Shown here: positions 2,070-8,917 of the stretch, one piece after another | Layout: the number at the start of each line of letters is the position of its first letter | Position numbering within the stretch: the stretch's first letter is position 1 | From: Rhodoferax koreense | Lineage (GTDB): Bacteria > Pseudomonadota > Gammaproteobacteria > Burkholderiales > Burkholderiaceae_C | NCBI RefSeq assembly: GCF_001955695.1 | Contig: NZ_CP019236.1 | Span: 3,534,001 to 3,598,000, forward strand | Length of the DNA: 64,000 nt | Direction of reading: 5' to 3' | The notes under the pieces: model-generated | Databases searched by the model: none | Told to the model about the DNA's origin: nothing | Seen by the model: only the letters and a program-made list of their open reading frames with translations | Translations under genes and position numbers: made by a program

Positions 2070-2944
2070 ACGGCATGAACACACCTCCCGATGCATCCAC
2101 CGCCAGCCTCGTCGCCGCAGCCGACAGGGCCTTTCCGAACGCACGGCCCTCCGGCAGCGCCAGCGGCCGCTGCACCCTGGTTGGCGCCGGCCCGGGCGAT
2201 CCGGAACTGCTGACGATCAAGGCCCTGCGTGCGATCCAGGCCGCCACCGTGCTGCTGGTCGACGACCTGGTGAACGAGGACATCGTCAGCTTCGCCTCAC
2301 CCACCGCACGCATCGTGCACGTGGGCAAACGCGGCGGTTGCAAATCCACGCCGCAGGCCTTCATCGAAAAACTCATGGTGATGGCCGCGCGCGAAGGCGA
2401 AACCGTGGTGCGGCTCAAGGGCGGCGACCCGTTCATCTTCGGCCGCGGCGGCGAAGAGGTGGAACACCTGCGCGCGGCCGGCATCGAGGTGGACGTGGTC
2501 AACGGCATCACCTCGGGCCTGGCGGCCGTGACCTCGGTCGGCGTGCCGCTGACACACCGCGAGCACGCCCACGGCGTGGTGTTCGTCACCGGCCACGCCA
2601 AGCCTGGCGACACCGGCACCGACTGGCGCGCGCTCGCCGCCACGGCCCACAGTGCCAAGCTGACGCTGGTGATCTACATGGGCGTGAGCGGCGTGCGGCA
2701 CATCCAGGACGAGTTGTTGACCGGGCTGCCGGCCAGCACGCCCGTGGCCGTGGTGCAGAACGCCACGCTGGCCACCCAGCGCCAGGCGCTGACCAGCCTG
2801 GGCTCGCTCTGCGAGACCATCGCGCGCGAACGGCTGGGCAGCCCGTCGATCATGATCATCGGCGACGTGGTATGCGGCATGCAGGCCGTGCAGCAGCCCG
2901 AAACTGCCGCCGGAAGCGATCTGCGCGCGCAACGCAGCGCCTGA
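2066..2944 (+). CDS. cobA: uroporphyrinogen-III C-methyltransferase
   Basis: A 292-residue SAM-dependent tetrapyrrole methylase that converts uroporphyrinogen III to precorrin-2, the first step of siroheme (and cobalamin) synthesis. Visible signatures are VGAGPGDPELLT near residue 39, VRLKGGDPFIFGRGGEE near residue 115 and GVPLTHR near residue 158, all standard for CobA/SUMT. About 35 poorly conserved residues precede the catalytic domain. The ATG overlaps the ybiB stop by four bases. Its place after nasA fits siroheme supply for nitrite reductase. The stand-alone CobA lacks the CysG dehydrogenase/ferrochelatase domain, so oxidation and iron insertion must be encoded elsewhere. Confidence 0.93.
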   Translation: MNGMNTPPDASTASLVAAADRAFPNARPSGSASGRCTLVGAGPGDPELLTIKALRAIQAATVLLVDDLVNEDIVSFASPTARIVHVGKRGGCKSTPQAFIEKLMVMAAREGETVVRLKGGDPFIFGRGGEEVEHLRAAGIEVDVVNGITSGLAAVTSVGVPLTHREHAHGVVFVTGHAKPGDTGTDWRALAATAHSAKLTLVIYMGVSGVRHIQDELLTGLPASTPVAVVQNATLATQRQALTSLGSLCETIARERLGSPSIMIIGDVVCGMQAVQQPETAAGSDLRAQRSA

Positions 2945-2951
2945 GCCGGGA

Positions 2952-4130
2952 TCAGCCCGCGGCAGCGGTGTCCGCAGGCTTGCCTGCGGTTGTTGGCGCC
3001 GGCGTGTCGTCGTGCGGATCGACGACTTTTTCAGGCTCGGGCCGCTTCGGCCGCACGAAGGCCTTGCGGCCCAGATGCAGCGCCAGCAGGCCGAACGGCA
3101 TGCGAATCCAGTGGGACCGCACATACAGCGCGAAACGGGCGGGCCAGGTGCCCAGGCTGCTGGTGCTGGCATGCGCCGGCCGCAAGGCGCGCGTGTAACA
3201 AGCATCCATCAGCGCCGCCACCCCGAATGCGGGCCGGCCCACGGTCGCCGCCTGCAGCACGGCTTCGGGCACCGGGGTTTCGAGCAGCAGCGTGGTGTAG
3301 CGCAACGCGTAATACAGCGGGCGCTGCAGGCCGAGGTGCAGTGCCCGGGGCACCAGGCCTTCCCAGAAACCGGGCGTGGCGCCGAAATGGCGCAGCAGGC
3401 TGTCCAGGTCGAACAGGTCGCGCAGGCCGTTGTCGAGTTCGCCCTCGTGGAACAGGTGGGTGGCACTGTGCAGCAACATGTCCCAGGGCTGCAGCACGTC
3501 GACGTGCGCCGCGCCCGGCAGCGGCACGATGCCTTCGAACAGCGCCGGCGTGTTGACCTGGATGCGCGCCGTCTCGGGCAGGATCGCATGGTGCACGTCG
3601 AGCGAGGTGCCGCGGCGGATGTGCGTCAGCGGCGGAATCTCGTGCATCCACTGGCGGTAATAGCGCTGGTCGTACTCGTCCTGTTTCGCGCTCTGCCAGC
3701 CGTGCGCCATGAGCCAACTCTCCACGTCGGCCAACTTGGTCTTGGGCACAATGATGTCGATGTCGGAGAAGGTCCGCCCCGCAGCCGCGGGCAGGCCGGC
3801 CATCACGTAGGCCGCGCCCTTGAGCAGCACGGTGCGCACCTTGGCGTCGGCAAGTTCGCGACGCAGGCATTCGACCTCCCACTGCACCGACACGATCTGC
3901 CGGTCCGACAACAGCTTGTCGGCCAGCAGGTGCAGGCGTGGACGCGGGGGCACGGCATCGATCAGGCCGGCATCGCCGAGCCGGTAGGCCAGCCGCGCCA
4001 ATAGGTTGGCCCGGCGCCCCTGGCGGATCAACAGATCCCACTCGAGCGGCGACAAACCGGTGACCGATGCGGGCGCCAGCAACGCGCGCAGGATGAGATC
4101 CCGCTGGATCGGCCTACGCGGCTGGCTCAT
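2952..4130 (-). CDS. NTP_transf_5-type nucleotidyltransferase of an HPr-rel-A cassette
   Basis: A 392-residue protein of the uncharacterised nucleotidyltransferase family (NTP_transf_5 type). LLKGAAYV (about 102-109) and FSDIDIIVP (about 121-129, with D123 and D125) form the Pol-beta-like active site, followed by DVHHA. A longer in-frame start exists upstream, but ATG 4130 overlaps the kinase stop (ATGA) and is preferred. It is the last gene of a four-gene minus-strand cassette. Such enzymes transfer nucleotides or act on peptides in RiPP and lasso-peptide clusters; the substrate here is unknown. The C-terminal 40 residues are Pro/Ala/Asp-rich and probably disordered. It converges on cobA with only 7 bp between stops. 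Confidence 0.82.
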   Translation of the reverse strand: MSQPRRPIQRDLILRALLAPASVTGLSPLEWDLLIRQGRRANLLARLAYRLGDAGLIDAVPPRPRLHLLADKLLSDRQIVSVQWEVECLRRELADAKVRTVLLKGAAYVMAGLPAAAGRTFSDIDIIVPKTKLADVESWLMAHGWQSAKQDEYDQRYYRQWMHEIPPLTHIRRGTSLDVHHAILPETARIQVNTPALFEGIVPLPGAAHVDVLQPWDMLLHSATHLFHEGELDNGLRDLFDLDSLLRHFGATPGFWEGLVPRALHLGLQRPLYYALRYTTLLLETPVPEAVLQAATVGRPAFGVAALMDACYTRALRPAHASTSSLGTWPARFALYVRSHWIRMPFGLLALHLGRKAFVRPKRPEPEKVVDPHDDTPAPTTAGKPADTAAAG

Positions 4131-5044
4131 GCCGCACCGCCTTGCCGCAATGCTTCGAAGGCGCGCTCTGCGTCCTCGAGTCGGCTGTAGGTGAATTGGA
4201 AACACCCGGCTTGGTCGATCAGTTGCCCGATGGCGTCGAAGCCGCGCCGGCCGTGGAGGTGGTAATTGAAGGACTGCTCGGCCAGCAGCATGAAGCTTTG
4301 CGCACGGCTGTGCGGCGCCATGACGGGTGCGGCATCACGTTGGTATTTGGGCAGCACCACCCAATGGGGCCGCGCGGGCTCGCGCACGCGCAGCACGCTC
4401 TCGACCGGTGGACGGACGAGCGCCACCGTGCCCTTGCTGGTATTGGGCACCGGCACGGTGAGGCATGCGTCGGGCGCGAAGGTGCGGATCACGTCGATCG
4501 ATCGGTTCTTGAGGTTGATCGGCCGAGCCATGCCGTAGATCAGGCCATTGTCGATGTCGTACAAGGCCAGTTCGTCGGACAACAGCCGCCAGCCTTTCAT
4601 CACCAGGCCGGCGCACAGCGTGCTCTTGCCCGAGCCGGGTGGCGCCGGGAACACAGCGGCCTTGCCGTCTTTTTCGATGACGGCGGCATGGAAGATCAGG
4701 TATTGGTGGCTGGTCGAAGTCACGCACCAGTTGAGTCCCCATTCCAGCCCGGCGAAGGCCTGGCCCGGCGACAGGGGAATGAAGAACGGCCGGCCATCGA
4801 GATAGAACACGGCTTCGGGCTTGAACCCGCTGCGCAAAGGCGCCTCACGCGCGATCTCGACATGGAAATCGGCGAAGGTATCAGGCGGCAAGACCGGGAA
4901 ATCGGCGTACATCAGCGCCAGGTCGTGCGCCAGCGTGGGCAGATTCGACTTGAGCCGCGCGACGAAAGGATGCAGATCGAGCAGCAGGCTACCGCGACGC
5001 AACGCGCCGCTCAACTCAGCCTGCGTAAGTTCGGAAATTTTCAA
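4127..5044 (-). CDS. HprK-related kinase A
   Basis: A 305-residue P-loop kinase related to HPr kinase/phosphorylase but without an HPr partner nearby. The Walker A is PAPPGSGKST (133-142), preceded by HAAVIEKDG and followed by LLSDELALYDI, where the acidic pair fits the HprK Walker B region. The start is an unusual TTG at 5044 that overlaps the TGA of the PqqD-like gene (TTGA). The next in-frame Met is at residue 45, too far in, so translational coupling from the upstream gene seems likely. The family is known as HprK-related kinase A of the HPr-rel-A system. By analogy with lasso-peptide kinases it may phosphorylate a peptide or protein; that is inference. Confidence 0.85.
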   Translation of the reverse strand: MKISELTQAELSGALRRGSLLLDLHPFVARLKSNLPTLAHDLALMYADFPVLPPDTFADFHVEIAREAPLRSGFKPEAVFYLDGRPFFIPLSPGQAFAGLEWGLNWCVTSTSHQYLIFHAAVIEKDGKAAVFPAPPGSGKSTLCAGLVMKGWRLLSDELALYDIDNGLIYGMARPINLKNRSIDVIRTFAPDACLTVPVPNTSKGTVALVRPPVESVLRVREPARPHWVVLPKYQRDAAPVMAPHSRAQSFMLLAEQSFNYHLHGRRGFDAIGQLIDQAGCFQFTYSRLEDAERAFEALRQGGAA

Positions 5045-5328
5045 AGAGATTTGGAAACAACGAGACCGGCGTCCTGCAATTGCAGCAGCGTCGTCTTAAT
5101 GTACTCGACGATGGCCGGCCCGTCCTGCTCGTCGAACCGAGCGGCCAGCACTTCAGCGATTTCGGCTGGTGTGCGTGGCGAGGACTCTAGAAGTTGAAGG
5201 ACTTCCATGCCCAGTAATTCGACCAGATGGGTGCTTCCGGAGGCCGCGTCATAAACGACCGCATGGTCTTCATCGGGCCATTCACGGTAGACGTGCTCAC
5301 CCGAACCTGCTCTCGACCACAGCGACAT
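5041..5328 (-). CDS. PqqD family protein of the HPr-rel-A system
   Basis: A 95-residue protein (from ATG 5328; a TTG four codons upstream is possible). It has the compact winged-helix PqqD fold: a beta hairpin around HAVVYDAASGSTHLVELLG, then helices with TPAEIAEVLAARF and a C-terminal LLQLQDAGLV. PqqD-like proteins are peptide-binding RiPP recognition elements that present a substrate to modifying enzymes. It sits between the Tat-like-signal protein and the HprK-related kinase, overlapping the latter by four bases. This argues that it delivers a protein or peptide to the kinase and/or nucleotidyltransferase. Function in this system is inferred only. Confidence 0.82.
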   Translation of the reverse strand: MSLWSRAGSGEHVYREWPDEDHAVVYDAASGSTHLVELLGMEVLQLLESSPRTPAEIAEVLAARFDEQDGPAIVEYIKTTLLQLQDAGLVVSKSL

Positions 5329-5383
5329 GGCTGCGTTCAAACAAGGGGCTCGTTCGCAAACGCCACCGCCGCGCGGCCCGGAC

Positions 5384-6091
5384 TCAAGGCTTGGCGATGT
5401 AGTTGCCGCGCAGGTAGGTCAGAATCTGGGTCTTGTCCCAAGGTGCACCGCCGCCCGCGGGGGTGTAGGTACCGCTGGCCATGAGCGGCAGCTGGTTCTG
5501 ACCGCGCACCACGATACAGGTGTTCATCTGGTTTGCTGAACTCGGGAAGAAGTAGTTCAGTTGCGCCGTGATGATGGCTTTCGTGAAATCGTCGGCCGTC
5601 GTGAGCACCGTGACCACCGGCGTGGAGCCGCTCACGCCTGGCGGCAGCACGATACCGAGGTTGCTGACCAGCGCAGACATGGTGACGTATTTGTACTTGT
5701 CCGCGTCTGCCACGGAACTGTCGATACCGTAGTAGATGTTCGAGCGAATCGACTTGAGCTGGACCCACGGGGCCGCGGTGAATCCAGTGTTGGAACGCGC
5801 CGTGTTGGTCGCCCAGTTGGTCACTGTCCAGGTTTCGTCGGTATAGAACTTCTGGCCCGGGTTGGCGGCCTGGCTTTTGGTCAGGTTGCCGGTCATGTTC
5901 GAACCCCAGGCCGATGGCGCGCGGCAGCTCCAGGCCATGGCAGGGCTGCTTGCAAGGGTAGCGACGACGGGGACACCGGCTGCACCGAGTTTGATCAGGC
6001 GGCGGCGTGAAGGCAAACGCACGGACGGCTGCGTTGCGTTGGTCTCTTCCAACATCTTTTCTTCACCCACGTTTTCGTTCTTTTCGTTCAT
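5384..6091 (-). CDS. Tat-like signal protein, putative substrate of the HPr-rel-A cassette
   Basis: A 235-residue protein that I do not recognise outside this context. The first 26 residues are charged (Glu/Asn/Lys rich). Then comes SRRRLIKLGAAGVPVVATLA (about 28-47) and SSPAMAW, a twin-arginine-like signal with an AMA cleavage site near residue 53. The mature part begins WSCRAPSAWGSNMTG and is rich in Asn, Ser, Thr and aromatic residues. ATG 6091 has AAAGG about 7 bases upstream. It is the first gene of the cassette, 55 bp before the PqqD-like gene. Position and export signal make it the best candidate for the modified product (inference). Confidence 0.7.
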   Translation of the reverse strand: MNEKNENVGEEKMLEETNATQPSVRLPSRRRLIKLGAAGVPVVATLASSPAMAWSCRAPSAWGSNMTGNLTKSQAANPGQKFYTDETWTVTNWATNTARSNTGFTAAPWVQLKSIRSNIYYGIDSSVADADKYKYVTMSALVSNLGIVLPPGVSGSTPVVTVLTTADDFTKAIITAQLNYFFPSSANQMNTCIVVRGQNQLPLMASGTYTPAGGGAPWDKTQILTYLRGNYIAKP

Positions 6092-6284
6092 ACGAGCCTT
6101 TTTTCAAACCATTTCAACAGCCACTGACTCTACCCGATGCATTTCGGTCGTCGATGGCATAAGTCACACAATACGCAAAAGCGCAATGCCGCTTCAGCAG
6201 CTAAGTAGCATAAATTGTGCCGTACCCCGTTACCGCGAATAACCCATTGATTCGTAATGGATTTTCTCGATTTTCCGCATTTCA

Positions 6285-6372: not shown

Positions 6373-7320
6373 ATGAATGACTTCCTGACCGCCGCGTTCT
6401 ACAAGTTCGTGGAATTGCCTGGTTTTGCCGAGTTCAAGCCCCGCGTGATGGCGGTGTGCGCAGAAAACGGCGTGTTGGGCAATATCCTGCTTGCCGAGGA
6501 AGGCATCAACGGCACCATTGCCGGCCCTGTGCAGGGGGTGCGGCATGTGCTGGCCTGGCTGCGCAGCCATGCGGCATTCGACGATCTCCAGCACAAGGAG
6601 GCCCACGCGAGCCACGCGCCGTTCTACCGGATGAAGGTGCGGCTGAAACGCGAAATCGTGTCCATGGGCGTGCCAGAAGTGCGGCCCGGTCTGATGGCCG
6701 GGCAGTACGTGAAGCCCGAGGACTGGAACCGCCTGCTCGACGACCCGGATGTGGTGGTCGTCGATGTGCGCAACGATTACGAAGTCGGCATCGGCAGTTT
6801 CGAAGGCGCGCTCAATCCGCACACACAGCGCTTCACCGAACTTCCGCAATGGGTGCGCCAGGCCTCGGCGCCGGGCCAGCCGCTCGCCGGCAAGCCCAAG
6901 GTGGCGATGTTCTGCACCGGAGGCATCCGCTGCGAAAAGTCGACGGCGCTGCTGCGTGCCCAGGGTTTCGAGGAGGTCTACCACCTTGAAGGCGGCATCC
7001 TCAAGTACCTGGAAACCGTGCCCGAGAATGAGAGCCGCTGGCACGGCCAGTGTTTCGTGTTCGACGAACGGGTCTCGGTGGGCCATGGTCTGGTACCCGG
7101 CGATCTCGAGTTGTGCCGTTCCTGTCGCCATCCGCTCGGTGACGAAGATCGCGCCTCACCCCACTTCGTGCGCGGCGTGAGTTGCGCGCGCTGCCACGAC
7201 AGCCGCAGCGAAGCCGAAAAACGCAATCTTTTGGAGCGCGAACGCCAGGTGGCGCTGGCGCGGGAACGCCAACAGGCCCATATCGGCGCCCGCCAGGCCC
7301 CGCCGAACCCGCGAACTTGA
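6373..7320 (+). CDS. trhO: oxygen-dependent tRNA uridine(34) hydroxylase, rhodanese family
   Basis: A 315-residue TrhO (YceA) protein. It makes 5-hydroxyuridine at the wobble position of tRNAs using oxygen. The N-terminal ACP-like domain contains GNILLAEEGINGTIAG (36-51), typical of the family. The rhodanese domain starts around residue 120 (VVVDVRNDYE), and the catalytic Cys181 lies in FCTGGIRCEKS. The C-terminus has four Cys in CRSC and CARC that may bind a metal. The last 40 residues are Arg/Ala-rich. A plausible promoter lies 60-90 bp upstream. The next gene begins 3 bp after the stop, so the two are probably co-transcribed. Confidence 0.92.
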   Translation: MNDFLTAAFYKFVELPGFAEFKPRVMAVCAENGVLGNILLAEEGINGTIAGPVQGVRHVLAWLRSHAAFDDLQHKEAHASHAPFYRMKVRLKREIVSMGVPEVRPGLMAGQYVKPEDWNRLLDDPDVVVVDVRNDYEVGIGSFEGALNPHTQRFTELPQWVRQASAPGQPLAGKPKVAMFCTGGIRCEKSTALLRAQGFEEVYHLEGGILKYLETVPENESRWHGQCFVFDERVSVGHGLVPGDLELCRSCRHPLGDEDRASPHFVRGVSCARCHDSRSEAEKRNLLERERQVALARERQQAHIGARQAPPNPRT

Positions 7321-7322
7321 AC

Positions 7323-7967
7323 ATGGCGGCGTTGCCGGTGCTGTATTCGTTTCGCCGTTGCCCGTATGCGATGCGTGCGCGGTTGGCGCTGCGCGTCAGC
7401 GGCCAGGTCTGCGAGTTGCGCGAGGTGGTGCTGCGCGACAAACCCGCCGAACTACGGCTGGTTTCCGCCAAGGCCACGGTGCCGGTACTTGTGGATGCGG
7501 ACGGCTCGGTCCTCGAGCAGAGCCTGGACATCATGCGCTGGGCGCTGACACGCCACGATCCCGAGGATTGGCTGGTGCCGCCGCTGGGCAACCTGGACGA
7601 CATGCTGGCCCTGATCGAGCAGATCGACGGCCCGTTCAAGTTTCACCTCGACCGCTACAAGTACCCGCAGCGCTATCCGGAGACCGGTGTGTCGCATCGG
7701 GAAGCGGCTGCCGCCATCCTGGCGCCGCTGCAAGCCCGGCTGAGCCAGACCACGCATCTGTTCGGCAGCCGACCCGCGCTGGCCGACATGGCGATCGCGC
7801 CGTTCGTACGGCAGTTCGCGCATGTCGATGCCGACTGGTTCTCGGCACAAGCCTGGCCGGAACTCCAGGCCTGGCTGTCGGCGTTCGAAGCTTCCGATCT
7901 GCTGGCCGGCGTGATGCACAAGTACCCAGCCTGGCGTGCCGGCACACCCGGCATCCGCTTCGGCTAA
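7323..7967 (+). CDS. glutathione S-transferase family protein
   Basis: A 214-residue thioredoxin-fold protein. The N-terminal half has LYSFRRCPYAMRARLAL (residues 7-23), a glutaredoxin-like CPYA site of the kind found in Omega/YfcG-type or GRX-like transferases. ATVPVLVDADGSVLEQS supplies the cis-Pro and the glutathione-contacting Ser. The C-terminal half is the helical GST domain with SRPALADMAIAPFVRQ. ATG 7323 is two bases after the trhO stop. The stop overlaps the stop of the convergent flavoprotein gene by three bases. Substrate is unknown. Confidence 0.88.
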   Translation: MAALPVLYSFRRCPYAMRARLALRVSGQVCELREVVLRDKPAELRLVSAKATVPVLVDADGSVLEQSLDIMRWALTRHDPEDWLVPPLGNLDDMLALIEQIDGPFKFHLDRYKYPQRYPETGVSHREAAAAILAPLQARLSQTTHLFGSRPALADMAIAPFVRQFAHVDADWFSAQAWPELQAWLSAFEASDLLAGVMHKYPAWRAGTPGIRFG

Positions 7968-8917
7968 AGCGCCAGCCGCGCCCGCGCCTCGAAGTATTCG
8001 CGCTGGAGCTGGGCCACGAGGTCGGCCGTGCTCTGCACCTTGTCGATGGCGCCGATGCCTTGGCCGCAACCCCAGATGTCCTTCCAGGCCTTGCGTGCGT
8101 CGCCGCCGAAATTCATCTTGGTCGGGTCGCTTTCGGGCAGCGCGTCCGGGTCCAGCCCGGCCGCGCGGATCGATGGTGCGAGGTAGTTGCCGTGCACGCC
8201 GGTGAACAGATTGCTGTAGACGATGTCGTCGGAGTTTCCGTCGACGACGGCCTGCTTGTACGCGTCGCTCGCACGGGCTTCGAAGGTGGCGATGAAGGCC
8301 GAGCCGATGTAGGCGAAGTCGGCGCCCATCGCCTGCGCAGCCAGCACCGCCCCACCCGTGGCGATGGCCCCGCTCAGCGCCACCGGGCCGTCGAACCATT
8401 GCCGGATCTCCTGGATCAGTGCAAACGGGCTCTTCACGCCGGCATGCCCACCCGCGCCCGCGGCCACGGCGATCAGGCCGTCAGCGCCCTTCTCGATCGC
8501 CTTCTTGGCAAACTTGTTGTTGATGATGTCGTGCAGCACCACGCCGCCGTAACTGTGCGCCGCGGCGTTGATGTCCTCGCGCGCGCCGAGCGAGGTGATG
8601 AGGATCGGCACCTTGTACTTCACGCACAGCGCCATGTCGTGCTCCAGCCGGTCGTTGGACTTGTGCACGATCTGGTTGATGGCGAAGGGCGCCGCCGGCC
8701 GATCCGGGTGCGCCTGGTTGTAGGCCGCCAGGGTTTCGGTGATCTCGGCCAGCCAGTCCTCGAGCTGCTCGGCCGGCCGCGCGTTCAATGCCGGCATGGC
8801 GCCCACCACGCCGGCAATGCATTGCGCGATCACCAGTTTGGGATTGCTGATGATGAACAGCGGCGAGCCGATGATGGGCAGCGGCAGATGGCTCAGGACG
8901 GGGGGAAGTCTGGACAT
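7964..8917 (-). CDS. nitronate monooxygenase-like NAD(P)H-dependent flavoprotein
   Basis: A 317-residue TIM-barrel flavoprotein of the 2-nitropropane dioxygenase/nitronate monooxygenase family. The N-terminus has PLPIIGSPLFIISNPKLV for FMN-binding. AAGAGGHAG near residue 152 contains the active-site His region, and GAIATGGAVLAAQAMGADFAYIGSAF forms the phosphate-binding loop. Members oxidise alkyl nitronates or reduce quinones/enones with NAD(P)H; the actual substrate cannot be told. It lies downstream of the acyl-CoA dehydrogenase on the same strand, separated by 100 bp with a strong hairpin. Confidence 0.85.
   Translation of the reverse strand: MSRLPPVLSHLPLPIIGSPLFIISNPKLVIAQCIAGVVGAMPALNARPAEQLEDWLAEITETLAAYNQAHPDRPAAPFAINQIVHKSNDRLEHDMALCVKYKVPILITSLGAREDINAAAHSYGGVVLHDIINNKFAKKAIEKGADGLIAVAAGAGGHAGVKSPFALIQEIRQWFDGPVALSGAIATGGAVLAAQAMGADFAYIGSAFIATFEARASDAYKQAVVDGNSDDIVYSNLFTGVHGNYLAPSIRAAGLDPDALPESDPTKMNFGGDARKAWKDIWGCGQGIGAIDKVQSTADLVAQLQREYFEARARLAL

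Follow-up and report, generated by a model that had tools for sequence, protein, structure and literature searches.

A four-gene cassette around a twin-arginine protein

We analyzed a 64,000-nucleotide stretch of the Rhodoferax koreense genome (contig NZ_CP019236.1, forward-strand positions 3,534,001 to 3,598,000; here called the window), in which four open reading frames (ORFs) on the minus strand, spanning 2952-6091, form a cassette encoding a protein with a twin-arginine (RR) signal, a PqqD-like protein, an HprK-related kinase A and an NTP_transf_5 nucleotidyltransferase (NTase). The genes and the elements within them are as follows (aa, amino acids).

5384..6091, minus strand: 235-aa protein with an RR signal, presumed exported and proposed as the substrate (from its sequence, its homologues and its kinase neighbor in the survey)
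5999..6007, minus strand: twin (triple) arginine of SRRRLIK, residues 29-31 (RR invariant in the alignments; RRx-hydrophobic in 161/162 substrates)
5933..5986, minus strand: hydrophobic part of the signal, to ..SSPAMA (from the sequence; conserved in homologue alignment A1; predicted cleavage site)
5900..5914, minus strand: motif SAWGS, residues 60-64, with Ser64 (5900-5902) as the proposed modification site (invariant column, 32/32; held-out motif test)
5041..5340, minus strand: PqqD-family recognition protein, 99 aa, resembling the recognition element (RRE) of ribosomally synthesized and post-translationally modified peptides (RiPPs) (TIGR04353, 63.8 bits; PF05402, 23.5 bits)
4127..5044, minus strand: HprK-related kinase A, 305 aa, TTG start (TIGR04352, 375.2 bits)
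4619..4648, minus strand: Walker A PAPPGSGKST, kinase residues 133-142 (G139, K140 and T142 in 93/93 loci)
2952..4130, minus strand: NTP_transf_5 NTase, 392 aa from its ATG (PF14907, 196.1 bits)

A preliminary description of this DNA had placed four minus-strand genes here, three of them joined by stop/start overlaps, and all four ORFs lie where it put them, with 4-base overlaps between the PqqD and kinase genes and between the kinase and NTase genes. A gap of 43 bases separates the RR gene from the PqqD gene, so this overlap linkage comprises the three enzyme genes and excludes the RR gene. The Walker A motif that had been called intact is present, and the assignment of the PqqD-like protein and the kinase to the HPr-rel-A system is borne out by scores well over the cut-offs of the models (35 bits for TIGR04353 and 200 for TIGR04352); the search for NTP_transf_5 was also positive (cut-off of PF14907, 31.2 bits). 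A single kinase of the TIGR04352 type, a single substrate of this kind and a single PF14907 protein are encoded in the genome. The RR protein of the window has no Pfam match up to E 1. Its database copy (P0001, 184 aa) begins only at residue 52, past the signal; the longer, 235-aa start is supported by comparison with the homologues, because their N-termini align with it (26 of 39 aligned).

RR proteins accompany the kinase across Pseudomonadota

To place the cassette among its relatives, we searched 300 genomes of the order and 398 of the phylum with TIGR04352; 50 and 61 of them, respectively, scored over the cut-off, 55 of the 61 being new. The 93 kinase loci collected comprise all 50 from the order, three reached via the substrate (G319, G313 and G304) and 40 of the 55 from the phylum, mostly with about 10 kb of surroundings; L093, on a small contig of G300 without a kinase, was dropped. 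An RR-signal protein adjoins the kinase in 89 of the 93 loci, 78 being recognized by profile (E up to 0.01), six by a rule (RR plus C-terminal motif) and five by eye (L042, L046, L057, L058 and L127). The profile search was blind to position; over L040-L092 it gave 49 matches, one per locus and all at the cassette. The second sample consisted of named loci, the best 80 of 348, five of which repeat the first sample; here the kinase has an RR protein beside it in 79/80 loci, or 74/75 after removal of the duplicates, the sole exception being a Nitrosospira metagenome-assembled genome (L144). This sample includes Massilia, Duganella, Herbaspirillum, Noviherbaspirillum, Rubrivivax, Paucibacter, Zoogloea, Dechloromonas, Thiobacillus, Gallionella and Nitrotoga, as well as some alpha- and gammaproteobacterial records. 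The neighbor survey thus implies that the pairing of RR protein and kinase exceeds chance. The supposed co-occurrence of a protein with a signal of the twin-arginine translocation (Tat) type holds in both samples, and the opposite outcome, cassettes consistently without an RR gene, clearly fails.

The gene order RR-PqqD-kinase-NTase is kept in 72 of 78 complete loci, with the RR gene last in five and the RR-PqqD pair last in one. Fusions join PqqD to the kinase (L058:4162-5490, 442 aa) and the kinase to the NTase (L111:4468-6588, 706 aa). In L107, the substrate and PqqD genes lie on the strand opposite to the kinase, and no NTase was found in the examined stretch. In L109, an HprK_rel_A kinase stands beside an stp1-type glycosyltransferase, and PqqD, NTase and substrate were not found nearby. 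L092 and six loci of the same class (L115-L120) have no PqqD match; the ORF in the gap is small and highly divergent, and weakly PqqD-like in 3/7 (E<1e-3).

The substrates, about 130-290 aa long and predicted to be exported, have no Pfam family in common among the 32 scanned. A profile built from 32 substrates whose motif follows the signal (N-type; alignment A2), with at most 10 candidates scored per genome, gave 43 matches in 42 of the 300 order genomes: 38 at kinase cassettes, one weak (G231) and four in giant ORFs of 1,046-2,888 aa (G067, G088, G108 and G184). Because these four cover the body region only, the body domain (..GLxPGYWKNH..AALLN..) is common to the substrates and the giant ORFs (L222, L223, L224 and L225), where it sits close to the frame's end in two cases and internally in the other two.

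An invariant serine switches position with the kinase clade

Apart from the twin arginine and one serine, the substrate sequences are very divergent. In A2, invariance is confined to columns R29, R30 and S64 (window numbering), and the serine closes a motif (e.g., SAWGS, SGFQS, SGMMS) soon after the expected signal cleavage. The SAWGS type is also present in Rubrivivax gelatinosus IM 151 (L143), a strain amenable to laboratory work. In a second type (C-type; alignment A3, 14 proteins) the motif lies near the C-terminus (e.g., SCWTSF, SAAAYTSL, SSWSSL), with RR, one Pro, the motif Ser and a further Ser downstream of the signal as the invariants. The class pattern is [S/T][G/A/C/S]xxS. In the window protein as modeled, it falls in a stretch with a predicted local distance difference test score (pLDDT) under 50, ahead of a helical domain, as an accessible site would.

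For the held-out test, weight matrices were trained on A2 and A3 and each protein was compared with its own shuffles (p<=0.05). The N matrix beat the shuffles in 53/73 held-out N-type proteins vs 1/29 C-type, and the C matrix in 28/29 held-out C-type proteins vs 1/73 N-type. Seven of the 29 C-type proteins (L121, L122, L123, L125, L127, L128 and L129) had been found through a TC[FYW]xS or SC[WFY]xS end and, since the motif helped to find them, are no evidence for it; at least 21 of the remaining 22 pass. The mean motif score is 9.9 in the N zone vs 1.3 in mid-protein controls (51 proteins). This per-sequence test came after a pooled-shuffle version at the 1% level, which we also report: 27/73 held-out N-type proteins passed, and 22/36 in the L094-L133 set (seven of them N-type), with an expectation below 1 in each case. 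By eye, a clear motif is missing from L042, and L119 departs from the exact spacing.

A tree of 167 kinases was made by a quick method, with N and C labels assigned by hand; the N label requires 3 changes on it, against a shuffled mean of 42.6, and the C label 5 (shuffled 38.4). The N-type kinases form one clade (Shimodaira-Hasegawa-like approximate likelihood ratio test, SH-aLRT, 86) that includes one unclear row and one kinase without a substrate. The motif position therefore tracks the kinase clade, which fits a pairing of enzyme and site.

These data bear on the possibility that the kinase and NTase act on some other target, with the RR protein being a co-regulated cargo or regulator. Four of the 93 loci (L108, L109, L131 and L132) have a kinase for which no RR gene was found nearby, L109 lies beside an stp1-type exopolysaccharide (EPS) gene, and modification of the RR protein is so far predicted only. 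On the other hand, each cassette has one RR protein, its motif Ser is invariant, the motif position follows the kinase tree, and three of the four loci without an RR gene are also without PqqD (the match being in L131 only). We therefore regard another target as unlikely.

Catalytic residues of the kinase and NTase

Kinase residues H119, K140, D157 and E158 are present in 93/93 loci, so that the His, the Walker Lys and the first Asp of HprK-type enzymes are kept throughout, and the second Asp of their Asp-Asp pair is a Glu. The kinase matches HprK structures at 4e-5. With the model of HPr(Ser) kinase/phosphorylase itself (TIGR00679) it scores only 10.9 bits vs a cut-off of 240. The NTase has a DxD and a later Asp conserved in 89/89, and its predicted fold is that of a Pol-beta-type nucleotidyltransferase, with DxD and third Asp in place. 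Another reading, which we consider highly improbable, makes the two enzymes partners in regulation or in a toxin-antitoxin-like pair, with the NTase as the target that the kinase phosphorylates.

Links to exopolysaccharide genes and XrtA

The cassette often accompanies genes for building floc and biofilm slime. The exosortase XrtA (TIGR03109 over the cut-off, at most 8 or 6 candidates being scored per genome) is found in 47/50 kinase genomes vs 26/250 others in the order sample (Fisher p 2.7e-32), and in 25/61 vs 10/337 in the phylum sample (p 2e-15), where the association is weaker. These p-values ignore shared ancestry; the kinase genomes of the order span 25 genera, 24 of which have XrtA in a kinase genome. 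Conversely, the cassette is missing from 26/73 XrtA genomes of the order sample.

The ORFs neighboring the 93 loci were clustered and representatives typed, membership following from BLAST links and not from per-protein scans. Recurrent clusters match amidotransferase TIGR03108 (15 loci), stp1 TIGR03087 (11), stp2 TIGR03088 (10), EpsB TIGR03013 (7), PrsT TIGR02917 (7) and the PEP-CTERM response regulator TIGR02915 (4; its representative is partial, 487 bits vs a cut-off of 503). Among the 21 collected loci from phylum genomes without XrtA over the cut-off (L094-L113 and L133), 17 fall in the stp1, stp2 or amidotransferase clusters.

A trypsin-like protease (PF13365) lies near the cassette in 16/93 loci, at no more than 230 bases and in mixed orientation in 13 of these, and near 23/75 further loci, nine within 350 bases and most others at about 900; in L084 it directly follows the NTase gene (2832-3620). 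The protease is below the cut-offs of DegP-type models. Its relative in the window genome (58% identity; G000:C1:4606900, L220:6883-7689) is 1.07 Mb from the cassette and about 55 kb from XrtA, where it overlaps prsT in the run prsK-prsR-prsT-protease (TIGR02916 820, TIGR02915 735 and TIGR02917 843 bits). From the prsT overlap and the neighbor data, the protease is tied in one genome to PEP-CTERM regulators and elsewhere to the cassette, and a role in processing, for the exported protein or for the PEP-CTERM system, is possible. In Aquincola, PEP-CTERM expression is reported to depend on RpoN, and floc-deficient insertions to lie in prsT, prsK and epsB2; the prsK mutant could not be complemented (PMC9850573).

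We also considered that the product might be a secreted antimicrobial or signaling protein, i.e., a large RiPP-like bacteriocin instead of a matrix protein. The strong divergence of the substrate bodies between genomes is compatible with this idea, as is the use of this enzyme set in making lasso peptides and linear polyphosphorylated peptides (LPPs). It agrees less with the XrtA/EPS link and with a body domain common to giant ORFs, and no transporter or immunity family was recognized in the neighbor clusters of at least 3 of the 93 loci (some typed, the rest judged by eye). This makes a bacteriocin or signal quite improbable in our view.

Sigma-54 sites and flanking genes

Upstream of the substrate gene of the window we noted one further element.

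6207..6222, minus strand: possible sigma-54 promoter CGGCACAATTTATGCT (GG-N10-GC), 116 nt before the substrate ATG (score 9/12)

Across the survey, 65/159 substrate genes have a GG-N10-GC site scoring >=10/12 no more than 520 nt upstream of the RR codons. A Markov model expects 4.6, random windows of the same loci give 4.2%, and the region upstream of the kinase gives 3/162; the first two controls weigh more because the last region is largely coding.

The flanks of the window cassette (14-2944 and 6373-8917) are ordinary by Pfam: the molybdopterin-binding/BFD end of an oxidoreductase (probably nitrate reductase), a Glycos_trans_3N protein, a tetrapyrrole methylase, a rhodanese of UPF0176, a glutathione S-transferase (GST) and a nitronate monooxygenase.

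Proposed mechanism

Taking the data together, we think it probable, though by no means assured, that this is a dedicated post-translational modification cassette acting on the RR protein, which would then have a role in the EPS matrix. The PqqD-like protein would recognize the leader of the neighboring RR-signal protein, and the HprK-type kinase would phosphorylate, still in the cytoplasm, the invariant motif Ser, which is Ser64 in the window protein. The phosphate may then be extended by the NTP_transf_5 enzyme with a hexose, as reported for pseudomycoidin, or with a nucleotidyl group. The marked protein would be exported through its twin-arginine signal, which would subsequently be lost, and could join an exopolysaccharide matrix made under RpoN/PrsK-PrsR-type control. 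One elaboration, in which a phospho-sugar handle on the end-near Ser covalently joins the protein to XrtA-linked EPS as a phosphodiester-linked protein-polysaccharide matrix, strikes us as distinctly doubtful.

Several observations weigh against the modification reading. Its chemistry is a prediction only, and deletion of lppN, the LPP counterpart of the NTase gene, changed nothing visible in a heterologous host (PMC13381572). Four kinase loci are without a recognized RR gene, as described above, and 20/73 held-out N-type proteins failed the motif test at 5%; variants (SVTAS, SGFTAS) and ORFs over-extended upstream account for part of these failures. XrtA over the cut-off is missing in 36/61 phylum kinase genomes, and XrtA is therefore not required; in the window genome, 1.1 Mb lies between the cassette and XrtA, and no EPS gene was recognized by Pfam among the six genes flanking it. 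The sigma-54 site of the window is weak alone, its score being reached by 17.8% of random windows. Finally, the Tat model TIGR01409 gives the window RR protein 12.8 bits, below the cut-off of 16.7, and among its relatives matches, at E up to 1, only 2/32 N-type and 1/14 C-type proteins (best E 0.12 and 0.053).

The last point bears on the export route. The Tat-like signal of the preliminary description stands as far as the RRx-hydrophobic motif is concerned, and does not as far as the model score is; export of the substrate through Tat, suggested by its signal, is not proven, and the idea of that description that the protein would already be folded when tagged is likewise conjectural. In a variant of our reading, the twin arginine is read by the PqqD-like protein only, export depends on Sec and the likeness to Tat is incidental. 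Such a role would suit both the scores below the cut-off and the position of the twin arginine in a leader that a recognition element should bind. The conservation of RRx-hydrophobic in all but one of 162 substrates (either start inside the R run being allowed), with K or R two residues further on in 106, and the presence of TatC in the window genome point the other way, and we hold the Sec variant to be unlikely. The proposal of a modified RR protein destined for the matrix is retained under either route.

Comparison with known systems

The literature searched, with most subscription journals and all preprints outside it, contained no mention of HPr-rel-A, TIGR04352, TIGR04353, PF14907 or NTP_transf_5; exosortase was not found there together with HPr kinase, and no account of the cassette was among the matches listed. 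Compared by names alone, the NCBIfam HPr-rel-A models TIGR04352 and TIGR04353 mention no RR substrate, Ser motif or EPS link. Relative to the preliminary description, the invariant Ser motif, its switch between N- and C-terminal positions and the link to EPS and exosortase are new. Tailoring by a kinase plus a nucleotidyltransferase has been described so far, in the sources consulted, for lasso peptides and LPP precursors, chiefly in Bacillota.

The parallel with lasso peptide tailoring (kinase, nucleotidyltransferase and recognition element) drawn in the preliminary description was right. HprK-like kinases place a phosphate on a Ser in lasso precursors (PMC9266682), and the cassette resembles those of paeninodin and pseudomycoidin in pairing such a kinase, with a precursor Ser as its target (here a predicted one), with a B1-type recognition protein (PMC9266682, PMC8498205, PMC7533575). 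In pseudomycoidin, the addition of one or two hexoses to the phospho-Ser is ascribed to the NTase-like PsmN (annotated as a nucleotidyltransferase), a host enzyme not being excluded (PMC9266682). Unlike in lasso systems, the substrate here is a protein, and macrolactam cyclase and B2 leader peptidase are absent from the six genes flanking the window cassette. For the AsnB-like cluster near 15 other loci, one representative scores 831 bits with TIGR03108 (cut-off 817) vs 257 with the lasso cyclase model (cut-off 525).

A closer parallel is provided by the LPP RiPPs, published in 2026 (PMC13381572), which combine an RRE, an HprK-like kinase and an NTP transferase, lie inside capsule genes and are described as restricted to Bacillota. 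Their precursors (35-200 aa) have a conserved N-part and a variable C-part, and the kinase phosphorylates core Ser3, next to the leader cleavage site. Both systems bring together a discrete recognition element, an HprK-like kinase and an NTP transferase, both have loci among polysaccharide genes, and the N-type invariant Ser would occupy the place that matches the LPP phospho-Ser just after the leader. In contrast to LPPs, the cassette occurs in Pseudomonadota, its substrates carry an RR signal instead of a YxxP leader, and it adds a C-terminal motif in some clades, sigma-54 sites and the XrtA link. The LPP-type leader motif [YW]xxPx[LVIFA] occurs in 3/162 leaders and [YW]xxP before RR in eight; by eye, the window protein has none. 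Neither an SpI-like peptidase nor an MsbA-like transporter was found by Pfam among the six flanking genes of the window; elsewhere, clusters of at least three loci were typed by some representatives or by eye, with no model search made. Given the restriction of LPPs to Bacillota and the rarity here of their leader motif, the cassette would work like an LPP system and is not a member of that group.

With the XrtA/PEP-CTERM EPS and floc system (PMC9850573, PMC1569441), the cassette has in common genomes, sigma-54 sites and the neighbors PrsT, PrsR, EpsB, stp1, stp2 and amidotransferase. It differs in that it is missing from some XrtA genomes and its substrates carry an RR signal, with no match to a PEP-CTERM model in the window protein or its N-type and C-type relatives (NCBIfam, E up to 1). 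The exosortase and EPS link suggests flocs and the biofilm matrix as a place in which to seek its function. RiPP-type Ser tailoring would here have moved onto whole exported proteins, the same enzyme logic recurring across alpha-, beta- and gammaproteobacterial records, and each protein would have one predicted serine directly checkable by mass spectrometry. The comparison may also help to explain why LPP and paeninodin clusters, as described in those sources, are placed in polysaccharide loci.

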